Assembly: GCA_030651765.1 (NCBI GenBank)
Contig: JAUSBY010000012.1
Location: 249,501-313,500, forward strand
DNA: 64,000 nucleotides
From: Coriobacteriia bacterium
GTDB lineage: Bacteria > Actinomycetota > Coriobacteriia > Anaerosomatales > Anaerosomataceae
Direction of reading: 5' to 3'
A model generated the notes under the pieces. That model worked only from the letters and a program-made list of their open reading frames with translations, was not told the origin of the DNA and ran no database searches. Shown here piece by piece: positions 14,899 to 49,094 of the stretch (the first letter of the stretch is position 1; each line of letters opens with the position of its first letter). The position numbers and the translations under genes were made by a program.

Positions 14899-15251
14899 TG
14901 GTGGAGGCGCGGAGAATCGAACTCCGGTCCACGACAGCCCCCTGGGGAGCATCTCCAGGCTCAGTCACATCTTGGCATTCGGTCGGGGCGACACGGTGTG
15001 ACGAGCGTGCCCGTTCCTAGCTGGTTCGGTCTTTCGCGTGAGCATACCGGCTACGTCTTACGCGGCAGTCCCCTTAAGTGACGTCAGATCCGGTGACGGG
15101 GACGCGCACCGGGAGACGTCGCTGCACTATTTAGGCAGCGAGAGCGTAGTCATTGTCGACGTTTGAGCGTCGTTTGCCCCTGTTTAGCGAGGTAAGGCGA
15201 CCTCGGCCTGCTTCTCCCCTCAGAACTACCGTGTCGAAACCAGTCGCCCCC
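14899..15251 (-). ncRNA. ssrA: tmRNA (transfer-messenger RNA)
   Basis: 353 nt. The 5-prime end GGGGGCG (from 15251) pairs over seven positions (one G-U) with CGCCTCC just before the encoded 3-prime ACCA at 14902-14899. GACTGGTTTCGACACGG and the T-arm GGAGTTCGATTCTCCG are diagnostic. The tag reading frame ends ...NVDNDYALAA followed by TAA (15133-15131); the resume codon is not certain, with GGC at 15178-15176 as the farthest plausible one upstream in this frame. tmRNA rescues ribosomes on non-stop mRNAs and tags the peptide for proteolysis. Its partner smpB lies 0.7 kb away and RNase R 2.4 kb away. Confidence 0.97.
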
Positions 15252-40524: not shown

Positions 40525-43500
40525 CTACTGCTCGAGCACCTGCCGCACCGCGGTACGCACCGCCGGGCTCACCGCACCGGTCCCGCCGAGGATGTGGACG
40601 GTGCCGATGGCCCCGCGGTTGGCGGCAAGACACGCCTCAACTGCGGCCGGCAGGCTCGCGGTCCGCGTGAGGAGCATGACCGTGCCTCGCTTGGCACAGA
40701 GCACGCCGCCTGAAAGCGCGTCGGGGAAGTTCTCGCCCGTGGCGATCGCCAGGCCGTCCCAGATAAGCCCGCCGTCGGTGACACCGTGGGTGGCCACGGC
40801 CACGCCGGTCGCGTAGCGGTCATCCCCTGCCAGGCGCTCGACGTCACCCAAGGCCGCGTCGAGTGCGCTTGCATACGCGGGCGAGACGACGAGTTCACCG
40901 CCGAGGATGAGCGCGTCGGTGGCGCCATCGGCGGACATCGCTCCGGCAAGGGTGGCCGGTGCGGCGGACGGGTCGACGAGGTAGATGGGCCAGCCGTTGG
41001 CCGCGGCAAGCGGCGAGCCGGCAAGCGCGTCGGGGTAGTTGCGGCCGGTGGCCACGAACGCGGTGCCGTCGAAAGTGGCGCCGAGTTTGGCGATTGTGGC
41101 CTGCGCGACCTTCCGCGCCGTCTCGTAGCGAGTGGCTCCGCCGATCCGGGTGATGTTGCCTGACGGGATGCCTGCGGCGACGAGACCGGTCACGACCGCC
41201 GGACCCACGGCAGTCTCGCCACCTAAGATGATGGCCTTGGTCGCCTCGAGCCGGCCGATCTCGGCTGCGGTGACTGCGGGAAGCGAGCCGGGCTCGGTGA
41301 GGAGTATCGGCGCGTCATGGGCGCCCGCGAGCGCGGCGCCCCCAAGCGCGTCGGGCCAGTTGCGACCGGTGGCGATGATGACGGTCTCGGCACCGCTCGG
41401 GAACGAGGCTTGCGCGACCTCAACTGCGGTTGCGAAGCGGTCGGCGCCCTGCACAGGCACGACCGTGATCGGCCCGGTACGGACGACCTCGAAGCCCACG
41501 GCGTGGTGCTCCTCGGCGTGGCCCGCCACATCGACCGACCAGTACTCGAGCGTGTGCACACCGGGCGCGGTCACCTCGATCGGCACGGTGTAGGTCTGCT
41601 GCGACCCGCCGTCCAGCCGGTACAGGGTGGACGCTACGCCTGAGCCGGCGTCGGTCGCGCCGAGCGTGATGAGCGCGATGTCGTTGTACGAGGGAGCCGC
41701 GTCTGACGTGGTCACCGGCGGAGCCGTATCGATCCGAACACGCAGGTGCTCTGTTGCGCCGCCACGTCGTCCCTCACCCACCGCGCGCACGTGGAAGTAC
41801 CACTCGCCGTCCGCCACGTCTTCGAGGGTCGTCGTCAGCCCGAGTGTGTCGATCTCCGCGTCGGGCACCGTGTCTGCGGCCTGATCGAGCGTGTACGAGT
41901 AGCCAACCGGCCCGTGACCCACGTCGATGACCTGCAGCCCGGAGGCGTAGTCCGCGACGTAGGCCGTGGTTCCCGAGACCGCGACGCCCCAGGCCTCATC
42001 GGGGGTGTCGTAGGTGCCGAGGAGCGCCGGTGCGGCCGGATCGCTCACATCGATGACCTGCAGGCCGGAGGCGTCCGCGATATAGGCAGTGGTGCCCGAG
42101 ACCGCGACGCCCCAGGCCAAGCCGGGGGTGTCGCAGGTGCCGAGGAGCGCCGGTGCGGCCGGGTCGCTCACGTCGATCACCTGTAGGCCGGAGGTGTAAT
42201 CCGCGACATAGGCCGTGGTGCCCGAGACCGCGATGCCTATGGTCAGGCCGGGGGTGTCGTAGGTGCCGAGGAGCACCGGCGCGGCCGGGTCGCTCACGTC
42301 GATGACCTGGAGGCCGGAGGTCTCGTCCGCGATATAGGCAGTGGTGCCCGAGACCGCGATGCCATAGGCCGAACCGGGGGTGTCGTAGGTGCCGAGGAGC
42401 GCCGGTGCGGCAGGGTCGCTCACGTCGATCACCTGTAGGCCGGAGCGGTAGTCCGCGACATAGGCAGTGGTGCCCGAGACCGCGACGCCCCAGGCATCAT
42501 CAGGGGTGTCGTAGGTGCCGAGGAGCGCCGGTGCGGCCGGGTCGCTCACGTCGATGACCTGCAGCCCAGACCCACGGTCCGCGACATAGGCAGTGGTGCC
42601 CGAGACCGCGACGCCCAAGGCCCTCTCGGGGGTGTCGTAGGTGCCGAGGAGCGCCGGTGCGGCAGGGTCGCTCACGTCGATCACCTGTAGGCCGGAGGCG
42701 TAGTCCGCGACATAGGCCGTGGTGCCCGAGACCGCGACGCCAAGAGCGACGCCGGGGGTGTCGTACGTGCTGAGGAGCGCCGGCGGGTCGAACTCCGCGC
42801 CCTGGATCACCTGCAGGCCGGAGGCGTAGTCCGCGACATAGGCCGTGGTGCCCGAGACCGCGACGCTCAGAGCGCCGCCGGGGGTGTCGCAGGTGCCGAG
42901 GAGCGTCGGCGCGGCCGGGTCGCTCACGTCGATGACCTGCAGCCCGGAGTCGTAGTCCGCGACATACGCCGTGGTGCCCGAGACCGCGACGCTGCGGGCC
43001 TCGCCCGGGGTATCGAAGGTGCCGACGAGCGCCGGTGCGGCCGGGTCGCTCACGTCGATCACCTGCAGACCGGAGTTGTCGTCCGCGACATAGGCCGTGG
43101 TGCCCGAGACCGCGACGCTCCATGCCCAGTCGGGAGTGTCGCACGCACCGAGGAGCGCCGGTGCGGCCGGGTCGCTCACGTCGATGACCTGCAGGCCGTA
43201 GATGCCGTCAGCGACGTAGGCCATGGTGCCCGAGACCGCGACGCCGCGAGCATAGCTGTCGGTGTCGTAGGTGCCGAGGAACGCAGGCGACGTCGAATCG
43301 CTCACGTCGATGATCTGCAGGCCGGAGTCGGTGTCAGCGACATAGGCCGTGGTGCCCGAGACCGCGACGGCACGGGCGATGTTGGGGGTATCGTAGGTGC
43401 CGACGAGCTCTGGCGCTGCCGGGTCGCTCACGTCGATCACCTGCAGGCCGGATTCGTGGTCGGCGACATAGGCCGTGGTGCCCGAGACGGCGACGTCATA

Positions 43501-43863
43501 GGCCCATGCGGGGGTGTCGTAGGTGCCGAGGATGGCGGGTGCGGCCGGATCGCTCACGTCGATGATCCGCAGCCCGTAGCTGCCGTCGGCGACGTAGGCC
43601 GTGGTGCCCGAGACCGCGACGCCATAGGCGTAGCCCAAGGTGTCGTAGGTGCCGAGGAGCAGCGGCAGGTCGCTGGCGGCCTCCCACTCGAAAGCGGGGG
43701 CGTCATCGGCATACCAGGCATCCGGGTTCGGATGCGTCGACGACGCGAGCCCCGGAACATCCGGCACCGCGCCGAGCGCGGGCACGGGGACCAGCACCGC
43801 AAGTAGGCTGAGCGCGACGAGTGACGACAGGATCGTCCGTGCGTGGAGTCCGCAGATGCGCAT
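40525..43863 (-). CDS. Secreted LVIVD-repeat protein with three CWB2 modules
   Basis: 1112 residues. A signal peptide (TILSSLVALSLLAVLVPVPA) is followed by 14 tandem LVIVD repeats of 42 residues (LGTYDTPG..GVAVSGTTAYV, then ADYASGLQVIDVSDPAAPAL), expected to form one or two beta-propellers, then an Ig/fibronectin-like segment (TAPPVTTSDAAPSYNDIALI) and three CWB2 modules (GADRFATAVEVAQASFP, GATRYETARKVAQATIA, GDDRYATGVAVATHGVT) for wall anchoring. ATG 43863 has GGGGGAG at the right spacing; ATG 43896 is an alternative. Repeats are almost identical at DNA level. Probably a surface adhesin or display protein; ligand unknown. Confidence 0.9.
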   Translation of the reverse strand: MRICGLHARTILSSLVALSLLAVLVPVPALGAVPDVPGLASSTHPNPDAWYADDAPAFEWEAASDLPLLLGTYDTLGYAYGVAVSGTTAYVADGSYGLRIIDVSDPAAPAILGTYDTPAWAYDVAVSGTTAYVADHESGLQVIDVSDPAAPELVGTYDTPNIARAVAVSGTTAYVADTDSGLQIIDVSDSTSPAFLGTYDTDSYARGVAVSGTMAYVADGIYGLQVIDVSDPAAPALLGACDTPDWAWSVAVSGTTAYVADDNSGLQVIDVSDPAAPALVGTFDTPGEARSVAVSGTTAYVADYDSGLQVIDVSDPAAPTLLGTCDTPGGALSVAVSGTTAYVADYASGLQVIQGAEFDPPALLSTYDTPGVALGVAVSGTTAYVADYASGLQVIDVSDPAAPALLGTYDTPERALGVAVSGTTAYVADRGSGLQVIDVSDPAAPALLGTYDTPDDAWGVAVSGTTAYVADYRSGLQVIDVSDPAAPALLGTYDTPGSAYGIAVSGTTAYIADETSGLQVIDVSDPAAPVLLGTYDTPGLTIGIAVSGTTAYVADYTSGLQVIDVSDPAAPALLGTCDTPGLAWGVAVSGTTAYIADASGLQVIDVSDPAAPALLGTYDTPDEAWGVAVSGTTAYVADYASGLQVIDVGHGPVGYSYTLDQAADTVPDAEIDTLGLTTTLEDVADGEWYFHVRAVGEGRRGGATEHLRVRIDTAPPVTTSDAAPSYNDIALITLGATDAGSGVASTLYRLDGGSQQTYTVPIEVTAPGVHTLEYWSVDVAGHAEEHHAVGFEVVRTGPITVVPVQGADRFATAVEVAQASFPSGAETVIIATGRNWPDALGGAALAGAHDAPILLTEPGSLPAVTAAEIGRLEATKAIILGGETAVGPAVVTGLVAAGIPSGNITRIGGATRYETARKVAQATIAKLGATFDGTAFVATGRNYPDALAGSPLAAANGWPIYLVDPSAAPATLAGAMSADGATDALILGGELVVSPAYASALDAALGDVERLAGDDRYATGVAVATHGVTDGGLIWDGLAIATGENFPDALSGGVLCAKRGTVMLLTRTASLPAAVEACLAANRGAIGTVHILGGTGAVSPAVRTAVRQVLEQ
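41900..43660 (-). repeat. Tandem 126-bp DNA repeats encoding the LVIVD array
   Basis: Fourteen in-frame units, thirteen of 126 bp and one shortened by a codon (unit 13, ADASGLQ). Long stretches are identical between units, such as the codons for AVSGTTAYVAD and VIDVSDPAAPAL. Unit 7 has a divergent end (QGAEFDPPAL). Such homogeneity indicates recent expansion or gene conversion. Confidence 0.9.
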
Positions 43864-43938
43864 GATGATCTCCCCCCGGAGCCAGTTGCGCTTCATGAGT
43901 ACCCTACCCCACAGCGCGCTCCGCGACACAGCAGAAGA

Positions 43939-43957
43939 GCGCGGCCGGTGGCCGCGC
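43939..43957 (-). terminator. Hairpin after hpf
   Basis: GCGCGGCC, loop of three, GGCCGCGC, then TCTTCTGC on the minus strand. It lies 34 bases beyond the hpf stop, before the CWB2 gene. Confidence 0.55.
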
Positions 43958-43990
43958 CCTTCGAGCGGGGGCTGCACTACGCACGCGGGT

Positions 43991-44527
43991 CTAGACCGAC
44001 GTGATCAGCCCATAGTCGCCGTCGTGACGGCGGTAGAGCACGTTGGTTCCCTCGGCATCCTCGGAGCGGAACACGAAGAAGTCGTGCCCGAGGAGCTCCA
44101 TCTGCAAGATCGCCTCGTCCGTACTCATCGGCTTGGACTCGAGCGTCTTGGTCTTGACGATCGCAGGCTCTTCGATCTCCTCGACAAGCGGCGGCGCCGG
44201 CATGGGCGCCTGCGCGCCTCTGTGGCGGTCGACCATCTTCGTCTTGTACTTACGCACCTGGCTCTCGAGTTTCTCGCTCACCAGGTCGATGGCCGCGTAC
44301 ATGTCGCTCGCGGCCTCCTTGGCCCGGATGACGGGACCCTTGGTGTAGACGGTGACCTCGGCTACCTGGCCTTTCTCTATCGAGCGGTTGCGCTCTGTGT
44401 AGAGCTCCACCTCGGCGCTCATGAGCATGTGATCCAAGATCTTGGCAACGCGGCCGACCTTCTCCTCGGCGTAGTCGCGGATTGCTGGGGTGACTTCCAT
44501 GCGACGACCTTTGACGATCATCTGCAT
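43991..44527 (-). CDS. hpf: Ribosome hibernation promoting factor, long form
   Basis: 178 residues. The N-terminal domain (MIVKGRRMEVTPAIRDYAEE, KVTVYTKGP-type strand, MYAAIDLVSEKLESQVRKYK) binds the decoding region of idle 30S subunits; the conserved C-terminal domain (MSTDEAILQMELLGHDFFVF, TNVLYRRHDGDYGLI) mediates dimerisation of 70S into 100S ribosomes, as in Gram-positive long HPF. ATG 44527 has GGAGG eight bases upstream. It stands alone between two terminator-like hairpins. Stress or stationary-phase control is expected from the family, but no stress promoter is recognised here. Confidence 0.95.
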   Translation of the reverse strand: MQMIVKGRRMEVTPAIRDYAEEKVGRVAKILDHMLMSAEVELYTERNRSIEKGQVAEVTVYTKGPVIRAKEAASDMYAAIDLVSEKLESQVRKYKTKMVDRHRGAQAPMPAPPLVEEIEEPAIVKTKTLESKPMSTDEAILQMELLGHDFFVFRSEDAEGTNVLYRRHDGDYGLITSV

Positions 44528-44617: not shown

Positions 44618-45355
44618 TTACCTGATGTGACCGAGGAAGTCCTTGGTCCGCTCGTTTTGCGGGTTATCGAAGACTTCCTCCGGCGTGCCCTGCTCCTGGA
44701 TGACGCCCTCATCCATGAACACCGCGCGGCTCGCCACGTCGCGCGCGAAGCCCATCTCGTGGGTGACGACGAGCATCGTCATCCCCCCTTTTGCGAGACC
44801 CTTCATTACGTCGAGCACCTCGCGCACGAGTTCGGGGTCGAGCGCCGAGGTGACCTCGTCGAAGAGCATGACGTGCGGGTCCATCGCAAGCGCGCGCGCG
44901 ATGGCCACACGCTGCTGCTGACCGCCCGAGAGCATGATCGGGTACACGTCGGCCTTGTCGTCCAGGCCTACACGGGCCAGGCCCTCGAGCGCGATCTGCT
45001 CGGCCTCTTCCTTCGATATCTTCTTGACCTTGCGCAACGCCAGCATGACGTTGGACTTGGCGGTCAGGTGCGGGAAGAGGTTGAAGCTCTGAAACACCAT
45101 GCCCACCCGTGCACGGATCTCGTTGATGTTGGTCTTGTGGTCGGTGACCTCATCGTTCTCGATGAAGATGCGACCGCTCGTGGGTTCCTCGAGGCGGTTC
45201 ACACAGCGGAGCATAGTCGACTTGCCGGAGCCGGACGGGCCCAGGATCACGACCACCTCGCCGCGGGCGACCTCGAGATCCACGCCCTTGAGCACCTCGA
45301 GGGCGCCGAAGCTCTTGTGGAGGTCCTCGATGCGAACCATCGCCTGCTCGGTCAT
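44618..45355 (-). CDS. Polar amino-acid ABC transporter, ATP-binding subunit (GlnQ-like)
   Basis: 245 residues. ABC ATPase with Walker [16 protein letters not shown]-loop [14 protein letters not shown], signature [20 protein letters not shown], Walker [15 protein letters not shown] and switch His ([12 protein letters not shown]). Sequence wording is that of the polar amino-acid uptake family (GlnQ/HisP/ArtP). ATG 45355 overlaps the permease stop by 4 nt, so the two are coupled. It energises import with the upstream permease and one of two binding proteins. Substrate is not deducible. Confidence 0.95.
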
Positions 45356-46176
45356 GCGCTGGCCTCCTTTGCGCGGGCGGCTTTGCGTCGCTTGCGCTCC
45401 TGGCGGTTCTCGGGCTCACGACCCGTCTCGGAGACCGCGAGCTTGGCCTCCAGATAGGCCACGAGCCGGCCCAACGGCAACGTGAGCATCAGGTAGAAGC
45501 CTGCGGCACCGATGTACGGGGACATGTTGAACGTGCGGGCCTGGATGGTGCGCGCCTGCAGCGTGAGCTCGAAGATGCCGACTGCGAAGAACAGCGCGGT
45601 GTCTTTGAACAGCAAGATGAACTCGCTCATCATCGTCGGCAGGATCCGGCGGACGGTCTGCGGGATGATGACGTACGCCATGGCCTGCATCGTCGTCATG
45701 CCGAGCGAGCGGGCCGCCTCGAGTTGCCCCTTGCTGATGGACTGGATGCCCGCGCGGAAGATCTCGGCCAGGTATGCGCCGGAGTTTATCACGAGCGCGG
45801 CGATCGCTCTCACGAACTGGCTCATGTCGATTCCGGCGACGGAGATCTGGCCGATCGGTCCGGTAGCGAACTCACGCCATCCGGGCATCAGGAGCGGGAA
45901 GCCGAAGTAGATGACCAGGATCTGGACGAGCAGCGGCGTGCCGCGGATGAAGTCGATGTAGAACGTGGCGGGGATCCGGACGATCGGGTTCTTCGACATC
46001 TTCATGAAGGCTGCCGTGAGTCCGGCGGGCAGTGAGAGCAGGTAGCCGACGATCAACAGCGCGGCGGCGGCCTGGAAGCCCTTCCACAGCAGCGGCAGGG
46101 ACTGCCAGATGATTGTCGGCGACATGAAGAGGTGAACGAACTTGATGCTTTCCAGGTACTCGATGATACCTTCCAC
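45352..46176 (-). CDS. Polar amino-acid ABC transporter permease
   Basis: 274 residues from GTG 46176. Five predicted helices and the HisM/GlnP family features: [40 protein letters not shown], the EAA loop [24 protein letters not shown] and [16 protein letters not shown]. The basic C-terminal tail ([16 protein letters not shown]) is an extra. No strong ribosome-binding site is visible; a start at the internal ATG (MSPTIIWQ) would shorten it by 17 residues. It follows the binding-protein gene, separated by a stable hairpin, and presumably works as a homodimer because only one permease gene is present. Confidence 0.9.
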
Positions 46177-46205
46177 GCATCCACCCACAATCCGCCGGAA
46201 TGGAC

Positions 46206-46241
46206 GAGACCCCACGGCGTGTTGCGGTGCCGTGGGGTCTC
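46206..46241. promoter_or_regulatory. Intercistronic hairpin between binding-protein and permease genes
   Basis: GAGACCCCACGGC and its exact complement form a 13-bp stem with a 10-nt loop. Such hairpins between binding-protein and membrane-subunit genes commonly stabilise the upstream message or reduce readthrough, giving excess binding protein. There is no T-run on the operon strand. Confidence 0.6.
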
Positions 46242-46289: not shown

Positions 46290-47123
46290 CTACTCGGCCG
46301 CAAACCACTTCTCGATCATCGCATCGTAGCGGCCGTCGTCCTTGATCTTGGCAAGTGCATCGTTGATGGCGTCGCGGAGTGCCGCGTTCTCCTTGTTGAC
46401 GCCGATGCCGTACTGCTCGGAGCTCATGACGTCACCGACGACCTTGACCTCGCGAGCCGGATCGGCCGCGATCGCCTCGGAGATCGGCAGGTCGTTGACC
46501 ACGCCGTCGACATCACCGTTCTGGAGGGCCTGGAAGGCCTGCAGGATGTTCTCGAACGGGACGACCGTGACATCGGCCGGCGCGTTCTCGCGCGTGTAGG
46601 CCTCGCCGGTCGTACCGGACTGGACGCCGATCTTCTTGCCCGCGAGGTCGTCGAGGGTCACGTAGGCGTCGCTCATGCGCACGGCCAGGATCTGACCGGC
46701 ATCGAAGTACGGGTCGGAGAAGTCGATCTCAAGTGCGCGCTCGGGCTTGATCGTCATCGCCGAGGTGATCATGTCGAACTCGGCACCGGTCTGCAGACCG
46801 ACGATCAGCGCGTCGAAGTTGTAGTGCTTGAACTCGTACTCAAGGCCGAGTTCCATCGCGATCTCCTTACCGAGATCGACGTCGAAGCCCTCGGACTCAC
46901 CAGCGTCGTTGATGAGCTCGAACGGCGGATACGTGGCCTCGCCACCGGCGGTAAGCGTGCCGGGGGTCACGAGCTTCCAATCCGCGGCCGCAGGCTCCTC
47001 GGCCGGCTCCTCGGTCGGCTCCTCGGCCGGCTCTTCGGTCTCTCCGCAGCCCACGAGCGCGAGAGCGCTCAGCGAGAGTGCGAAGACGACCATGAGTGCG
47101 AGCCACTTGCTGGACTTACTCAT
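46290..47123 (-). CDS. Amino-acid ABC transporter solute-binding lipoprotein
   Basis: 277 residues, family 3 solute-binding protein. Lipobox ALVGCGE (Cys about 26) is followed by an acidic Glu/Pro/Ala repeat linker (EEPAEEPTEEPAEEPA) and the bilobed domain: GEATYPPFELINDAGESEGF, DVDLGKEIAMELGLEYEF, FDMITSAMTIKPERALEIDF, GVQSGTTGEAY. It captures a polar amino acid outside the membrane and hands it to the permease. GGAGGG precedes ATG 47123. A second binding-protein gene lies just upstream on the same strand. Confidence 0.95.
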   Translation of the reverse strand: MSKSSKWLALMVVFALSLSALALVGCGETEEPAEEPTEEPAEEPAAADWKLVTPGTLTAGGEATYPPFELINDAGESEGFDVDLGKEIAMELGLEYEFKHYNFDALIVGLQTGAEFDMITSAMTIKPERALEIDFSDPYFDAGQILAVRMSDAYVTLDDLAGKKIGVQSGTTGEAYTRENAPADVTVVPFENILQAFQALQNGDVDGVVNDLPISEAIAADPAREVKVVGDVMSSEQYGIGVNKENAALRDAINDALAKIKDDGRYDAMIEKWFAAE

Positions 47124-47261: not shown

Positions 47262-48095
47262 CTACTCGGCGGCTACCTCGAGTGTGGGAAACTCGCCGAG
47301 CCACTTGCGCGTGATGGTGCCGAGAACGCCCTCGGCAGAGAGCGTGTCGAGTACGCTGCGCACCTCGGCCTCGAGCTCTGTCGCGTCCTTCTTGACGACG
47401 ACGCCGAGCGGCGTGGCGGAGCCGACCTGCCCGACGATGCGGATGTCGTCGAAGTCGCGGGCGATGTACGCGCCCACCGCCGCATCTCCCGCCACCACGT
47501 CGACCTCGCCGGCGACAAGCGCGTCGAACGCCGCCCGCAGGGTGTCGAAGCCGGTGACGTAACCCTCACCGTAGTCCGCCTCGATCGCCCAGAACGCGGC
47601 GCTCTCCTTCTGCGCGGCCACGCGCAGCCCGCCGAGTGTGTCGAGCGCGTGCGTCGGCGCCGGCGTGCCGCTCTCGACGATCGAGAAGAGCGCCGGACCG
47701 TCGATCAGGTACGAACCGGCCGTGGAGATATCGGCAAGGATCGCCTCGGTGATCGGCGTCGCGCCGAGCGCGATGTCCACCCTGCCGTCATTCACCGCCG
47801 ACGCGACCTGCCCGGCCCCGACAGGGACGAGTTCGAGCTTGAGACCGAGCCGCTCGGCGATCGCCGCGGCGACATCGACGTCGATGCCCGCGTCCACGCC
47901 CTGGTCGTTGCCGCCGAAGGGCGGATACTCCAGGTCGACACCGACGCGCAGCACGCCTGCGGTGCCGATCACAGGCGGCGCGACCGTGGGGTCGAGCACC
48001 GGAGCCTCAGGCTCCTTCGAGCACCCGGTCACCGCGCCGACGAGTACGAGTGCGAGTGCGAGAGACAGGGCGATCAGTCGTCGCTCGAGGTGCAT
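47262..48095 (-). CDS. Second solute-binding lipoprotein, diverged paralogue
   Basis: 277 residues. Signal and lipobox GAVTGCSK, then a family 3 binding domain: RVGVDLEYPPFGGNDQGVDA, DVDVAAAIAERLGLKLELVP, VDIALGATPITEAILADIST. It is clearly diverged from the downstream binding protein and lacks its Glu-rich linker, so it probably delivers a different amino acid to the same permease. ATG 48095 has AGGAGGG six bases upstream; a 12-codon longer form would read into the structured leader. The leader (48117-48367) has strong RNA structure, suggesting post-initiation control. Confidence 0.92.
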   Translation of the reverse strand: MHLERRLIALSLALALVLVGAVTGCSKEPEAPVLDPTVAPPVIGTAGVLRVGVDLEYPPFGGNDQGVDAGIDVDVAAAIAERLGLKLELVPVGAGQVASAVNDGRVDIALGATPITEAILADISTAGSYLIDGPALFSIVESGTPAPTHALDTLGGLRVAAQKESAAFWAIEADYGEGYVTGFDTLRAAFDALVAGEVDVVAGDAAVGAYIARDFDDIRIVGQVGSATPLGVVVKKDATELEAEVRSVLDTLSAEGVLGTITRKWLGEFPTLEVAAE

Positions 48096-48116
48096 GTGAC
48101 TCCCTCCTGATGTGAC

Positions 48117-48367
48117 CCAAAGTGCTTTCACCCGGCTGACCTGGTCTTTGGCCCCACACTCGCGTACGGGGGCTTCCGCTTGATGCTATCTCACTACCGG
48201 CCCTCTCGCCCGCCAGCCGGGATGGCTGGACCGGACGGTACGACTTACCCCTAAGACGCGCCATGCTCGCGCGACGGTTGCCCGCCGGCTTACGTGGGTC
48301 CTTTCGGCCGCGTCTACCATGGACTAAGGCGCTTGCGCGCCCGCAACCACAGACCCGGGTGAAAGCA
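48117..48367 (-). ncRNA. Candidate structured leader RNA (riboswitch-like), class not recognised
   Basis: A 13-bp perfect stem, TGCTTTCACCCGG with CCGGGTGAAAGCA (48355-48367 with 48123-48135), closes about 245 nt upstream of the binding-protein gene, ending 28 nt before its ATG. Inside on the minus strand: GGTTGC/GCAACC (48343-48348 with 48276-48281) and AGACGCG/CGCGTCT (48309-48315 with 48254-48260), which interleave as a pseudoknot; hairpins GGCGC-GCAA-GCGCC and CCAGCC-ATCCC-GGCTGG; and CCAAAG/CTTTGG (48146-48151 with 48117-48122), which would enclose the closing-stem 3-prime strand. This fills a 303-base gap with no gene. I could not match it to a known riboswitch class. Confidence 0.55.
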
Positions 48368-48398
48368 TATGGAAGTGTAGCAGGTGCCGGGGCGCGTA

Positions 48399-49094
48399 TC
48401 ACGCGCGCACCTCCGCAGGTGTCACCCGCGAGCACGCTCGCGCCACCGAAAGCGCCCGGATCGTGGGCGAGCCGACGCAGATGAGCGCCCGCGCCGCGGC
48501 ATCCAGCGTTGCGCCGGTGGTGAACACGTCATCGACGAGGACGACCCTGCCGCCCGCGACCTCTCCGGTCACGTCGAAGGACCCGGCACGGTTGGCCGCA
48601 CGCTGCTCCCGGCCCAGAGCGCGCTGATCGGCGGTCACCCTCGAGCGGAGCACCTCGGCCACCGGCAGGCCCGTGAGCGTACCGAGCGCGCGGGTGACGT
48701 CTACGGCGTGGTCGAAGCCGCGCCTCCTGCGCGCAGCGGGCGACGCCGGCACGGGCACGAGCACATCGTCCGGAACGAGCCAGCCGTCGGCCGCCTCGGC
48801 CAGCAGCGACGCGAGCACGACCGCGTAGCGGCGCTCACCGCCGTCTTTGAGCACGACGATCGCCCGCGAGACCGGCGGCTCCAGAAGCGCCGCCGATCGT
48901 GCAGCACGAAACGCAAACGTGCGCCCCGCGCACTCAGCGCATAAGAGACCGGCGATCGGCGCTCCACAGCGTGTGCACGCCGAAGCGGGGTCGATGCGCG
49001 GCACCGCCGCCTGGCAGCTATCGCACAGAAGCGTGCCGGGGAGGTCGCATCCGGCGCACCTCGGCGGGAACACCAGATCGAGAAGCGCGCGCAC
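48399..49094 (-). CDS. ComF-family phosphoribosyltransferase-like protein
   Basis: 231 residues. N-terminal zinc-finger cysteines (FPPRCAGCDLPGTLLCDSC, ACTRCGAPIAGLLCAECAG) and a C-terminal phosphoribosyltransferase fold with GRVVLVDDVFTTGATLDAAA. PVPASPAARRRRGFDHAVDV is characteristic of ComF/GntX. Members take part in DNA uptake or related DNA transactions in naturally competent bacteria; no other competence genes are visible here. Start is GTG 49094. It follows the AEC transporter by 25 nt on the same strand. Confidence 0.9.
   Translation of the reverse strand: MRALLDLVFPPRCAGCDLPGTLLCDSCQAAVPRIDPASACTRCGAPIAGLLCAECAGRTFAFRAARSAALLEPPVSRAIVVLKDGGERRYAVVLASLLAEAADGWLVPDDVLVPVPASPAARRRRGFDHAVDVTRALGTLTGLPVAEVLRSRVTADQRALGREQRAANRAGSFDVTGEVAGGRVVLVDDVFTTGATLDAAARALICVGSPTIRALSVARACSRVTPAEVRA

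Follow-up and report, generated by a model that had tools for sequence, protein, structure and literature searches.

A raiA motif (ModT) RNA precedes an amino-acid ABC transporter operon in a Coriobacteriia bacterium

Introduction

The stretch of DNA analysed here, called the window, comprises 64,000 nucleotides from a Coriobacteriia bacterium and contains, on its minus strand, a potential structured RNA of about 245 nt that ends just ahead of a gene for an amino-acid-type binding lipoprotein. The initial annotation of this RNA, made from the sequence alone, considered it an orphan and proposed either a new amino-acid-responsive leader or an independent noncoding RNA. The locus thus raises the question of what this RNA is, and whether it controls the transporter genes that follow it.

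Results

The RNA matches the raiA motif over its full length

When the whole window was searched with cmscan against Rfam 15, two matches over the gathering scores were obtained, the raiA motif and tmRNA. The tmRNA gene (14899-15251, minus strand, RF00023) carries the tag peptide VDNDYALAA as read by ARAGORN. The raiA motif (RF03072), which is the family also known as ModT, matched at 48363-48127 on the minus strand with 160.1 bits (E 3.6e-40), 59 bits over its gathering score of 101.3 bits, and the alignment covers model positions 1-209 of 209. In a search with a relaxed E-value raiA was again the sole significant match, the remainder being noise, and neither the strict nor the relaxed search matched the RNA to riboswitches of the lysine, glycine or glutamine types. 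The orphan reading had been reached by comparison with a list of RNA types in which raiA was absent, and the initial annotation had itself named a match to a family already in Rfam as the result that would overturn it; the search that it recommended returned such a match, end to end. A new, undescribed class of RNA is therefore refuted by the full-length match, and is further opposed by a pseudoknot topology identical to that of the cryo-EM ModT structure and by the same gene neighbourhood (see below), so that we consider this reading extremely improbable. That this RNA represents the raiA motif (ModT), present once in this actinobacterial genome, is nearly certain.

Architecture of the fold

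The elements P1 to P8 were placed on the window by means of the Rfam alignment and of the published description of the family (PMC11751092), yielding the following features, all on the minus strand:

48123-48367, minus: whole structured RNA, including a 4-bp outward extension of P1 (TGCT/AGCA)
48127-48363, minus: conserved core of the raiA motif/ModT (cmscan, RF03072)
48355-48363, minus: 5' strand of P1a, partner 48135-48127 (Rfam alignment, covariation)
48328-48341, minus: P2-like hairpin GGCGC-GCAA-GCGCC, of variable length, missing in part of the phylum
48298-48324, minus: P3a/P3b hairpin, with a 7-nt loop (48315-48309) that provides one half of pk-1
48254-48260, minus: second half of pk-1, CGCGUCU, at the P5/P6 junction (covariation)
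48163-48242, minus: P6-P7-P8 multi-stem domain, corresponding to the family's 'variant 2' (Rfam alignment; variant definition in PMC11751092)
48154-48157, minus: 3' strand of P4, partner 48297-48294, invariant in 61 sequences

The structural description given in the initial annotation was borne out. The closing stem is an exact 13-bp helix (TGCTTTCACCCGG/CCGGGTGAAAGCA) in which 48367-48355 pair with 48135-48123, and the outward extension of P1 measures 3 bp or more in each of 25 sequences, those of the window and of the 24 family members. The two helices said to stand in pseudoknot order, of 6 and 7 bp, are respectively P4 (CCAC/GTGG, 48297-48294 with 48157-48154; 6 bp if extended with G-U) and pk-1 (7 bp, AGACGCG/CGCGTCT, 48315-48309 with 48260-48254), which indeed interleave, and the hairpin with the GCAA tetraloop is the P2-like element at 48341-48328. 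Rfam depicts pk-1 as an ordinary stem; the Clostridium acetobutylicum RNA, solved by cryo-EM, shows it joining the P3 loop to the P5-P6 junction (PMC11751092). For the ModT features pk-2 (two pairs), A-minor and E-loop contacts, the flanking positions, UUAG and GGCCAAAG, are highly conserved.

The fold is maintained by compensatory changes

The folding energy of the RNA is ordinary for GC-rich DNA (z = -0.40, with 37 of 100 shuffles folding equally well), as would be expected if GC-rich intergenic DNA had folded by chance or the copy were degenerate. Because the folding energy does not separate the sequence from its shuffles, the case for an RNA was made by comparison. The genome holds one copy of the raiA RNA, which was also present in 25 of the 27 genomes of the taxonomic family and in 114 of the 119 sampled in the class; across the phylum it was matched in about a third of the genomes sampled (110 of 296, 108 of them over the cut-off), and none of the 14 control genomes contained it.

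An alignment of 62 sequences (61 distinct rows) was compared with shuffles and with structures slid along it. Among the 61 distinct homologues, standard pairs occupy 94.2% of the pair cells, against 77.9% in shuffles and 32-44% in slid structures. Both sides have changed at 47 of the 69 pairs, the compensatory changes that the initial annotation had proposed to look for, and cells with changes on both sides number 619 compared to 176 in shuffles. The covariation score reached 0.426 (shuffles, 0.153; slid structures, at most 0.105). In pk-1, 4 of the 7 pairs show changes on both sides while 98.8% of the cells are paired, and in P1a/P1b this is the case for 9 of 12 pairs, P1 varying freely as a helix. 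These results demonstrate that compensatory changes have preserved the pseudoknotted fold. Chance is ruled out by the covariance-model match (E 3.6e-40) together with the covariation in homologues and, since many unpaired positions are also invariant across the phylum, we give a fortuitous or degenerate structure practically no credence. Rather than a new amino-acid sensor, the RNA is an ordinary member of a known bacterial family of abundant noncoding RNAs.

Gene neighbourhood

The genes surrounding the RNA are, in the order of transcription:

48399-49094, minus: comFC-like gene, upstream, with a double zinc ribbon and a phosphoribosyltransferase domain (Pfam DZR_2 and Pribosyltran; NCBIfam comF below cut-off)
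47262-48095, minus: SBP1, family-3 amino-acid-type solute-binding lipoprotein (Pfam SBP_bac_3)
46290-47123, minus: SBP2, family-3 solute-binding lipoprotein (domain search)
45352-46215, minus: ABC permease, HEQRo/BPD_transp_1 (domain/family search)
44618-45355, minus: ABC ATPase, GlnQ-like (domain/family search)
43991-44527, minus: HPF/RaiA ribosome-hibernation factor, the namesake of the RNA family (NCBIfam yfiA above cut-off; Pfam S30AE N and C domains)

The start codon of SBP1 lies 27 nt past the RNA, with a Shine-Dalgarno sequence near 48103-48108. The order comFC, RNA, SBP1, SBP2, permease, ATPase and HPF was found in all family loci whose contigs extend that far. Outside the class, hpf directly follows the RNA in many members of the phylum, and in some the nearest long downstream frame, by mechanical reading of open reading frames, is on the opposite strand. 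For ModT, comFC has been reported upstream and raiA and periplasmic-binding-protein genes downstream (PMC11477304), and frequencies have been given for the common positions of comFC upstream and raiA/hpf downstream (PMC11706538). The RNA of the window is found in this setting, with comFC upstream and hpf downstream.

Several features of these loci were noted besides. Adjoining hpf, a long secreted-type protein (40525-43977, minus strand) contains many near-identical repeats, and its C-terminal part resembles cell-wall-binding repeats. The operon permease has a long additional N-terminal domain at three loci (L026, L043 and L045; 2164-3558 etc. relative to the RNA start), FHA-like in the first and of another secreted type in the other two; the window copy is devoid of it.

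Many relatives encode, as the second binding protein of the operon, a naturally circularly permuted SBP_bac_3 protein that begins with lobe 2 and ends with lobe 1, the cut lying in the hinge. The permutants (L026:3463-4350, plus strand; L033:9025-9942, minus strand; similar in L027-L031, L035, L041, L046 and L049) are homologues of SBP2 (46290-47123), whose window copy has the ordinary lobe order, and replace the ordinary protein in 14 of the 24 family loci by BLAST order or 11 by motif order. Pfam matches the permutant in two stretches, and its AlphaFold model is moderately confident (pLDDT 75, pTM 0.67). Its best PDB match is the tandem-domain GlnP 6h30, with an alignment that spans the second half of domain 1 and the first half of domain 2; this alignment across adjoining domain halves suggests that the permutant arose from a GlnP-type tandem by duplication followed by loss of the outer halves. 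A limited literature search found no description of an SBP_bac_3 circular permutant.

A predicted promoter at the closing stem

A scan for sigma-70 consensus promoters found none, because the putative promoter belongs to the extended -10 class and lacks a clear -35; aligning the upstream DNA of the relatives revealed it:

48374-48382, minus: predicted extended -10 promoter, TGCTACACT (conserved placement in relatives and window sequence)

Relative to the model start, the pattern TGnTAnAnT is placed at -18 to -20 both in the window and in 24 of 24 family loci, for a background of 3.2e-4 per base. A start 7 nt downstream of this box would coincide with 48367, where the 13-bp stem begins, and transcription is thus predicted to begin near the closing stem. 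ModT is abundant in clostridia (PMC11706538), and trans action has been shown experimentally for C. difficile and C. acetobutylicum (PMC11706538; PMC11477304, citing Soares 2024). By analogy with these members, the conserved promoter at the start of the stem suggests a separate, stable and very abundant transcript, which may act in trans as cells pass from growth into stationary phase. As no intrinsic terminator separates the RNA from the binding-protein gene 27 nt downstream, read-through from its promoter into the transporter operon is likely, the RNA being then trimmed back to its stem or used as a plain leader. The possibility of an independent noncoding RNA, raised in the initial annotation, agrees with the raiA match and with this clostridial behaviour.

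Does the RNA also act as a cis leader?

It could nevertheless be envisaged that the RNA, although raiA by descent, serves in this lineage as a cis leader or riboswitch for the amino-acid ABC operon and hpf as well. Throughout the family it is located directly upstream of the binding-protein gene on the same strand, the 27-nt distance to the start codon is constant, which also suits a leader, and no terminator-like site was found in the spacer of about 27 nt before SBP1. 

The spacer leading to the start codon, however, is not conserved, and no conserved expression platform was found there in the window and its 24 family relatives. The alternative fold CCAAAG/CTTTGG, around which a switch had been proposed, does have its complement in the window, but it is missing in 23 of the 24 relatives, the congener included (CTGTGG in L013); CTTTGG is common to the window and one relative only, at a different position there. 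This candidate was rejected as not conserved. With neither spacer nor CTTTGG conserved, a conserved cis switch is not supported. In other members the next gene is hpf, at a distance of hundreds of bases, or is found on the opposite strand, and trans complementation in two clostridia speaks against a riboswitch there (PMC11706538). A cis leader or riboswitch function in addition to raiA descent is therefore unlikely, and we hold it very unlikely that the lineage has adopted the RNA as a true cis leader of the transporter-hpf operon besides a trans role; if true, this role would link amino-acid supply to ribosome hibernation. As for a new amino-acid-responsive leader, it is contradicted by the known family, by the lack of conservation of the proposed switch and by the trans action of clostridial members (PMC11706538; PMC11477304, citing Soares 2024).

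Discussion

The assignment to raiA removes a false lead to a new RNA and adds a well-supported member to the raiA/ModT family. It also provides small pieces of context for work on ModT: a conserved synteny gathering the raiA RNA, an amino-acid transporter and a hibernation factor in one stretch, and a predicted promoter placed so that transcription would start at the P1 stem.

Compared to amino-acid riboswitches of the lysine, glycine and glutamine types, the RNA shares a site before an amino-acid transporter gene but has neither an Rfam match to them nor a conserved expression platform. With raiA/ModT RNAs it has in common the full-length model match, P1-P8 with pk-1, the variant-2 P6-P8 domain, the single copy, and a position behind comFC and ahead of raiA/hpf or binding-protein genes, to which a predicted promoter of its own may be added. 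It differs by the four additional P1 pairs and by the GCAA-capped P2-like hairpin, whose lineage-specific length is ordinary, and an ABC amino-acid operon here separates the RNA from hpf, a setting already in the literature (PMC11477304).
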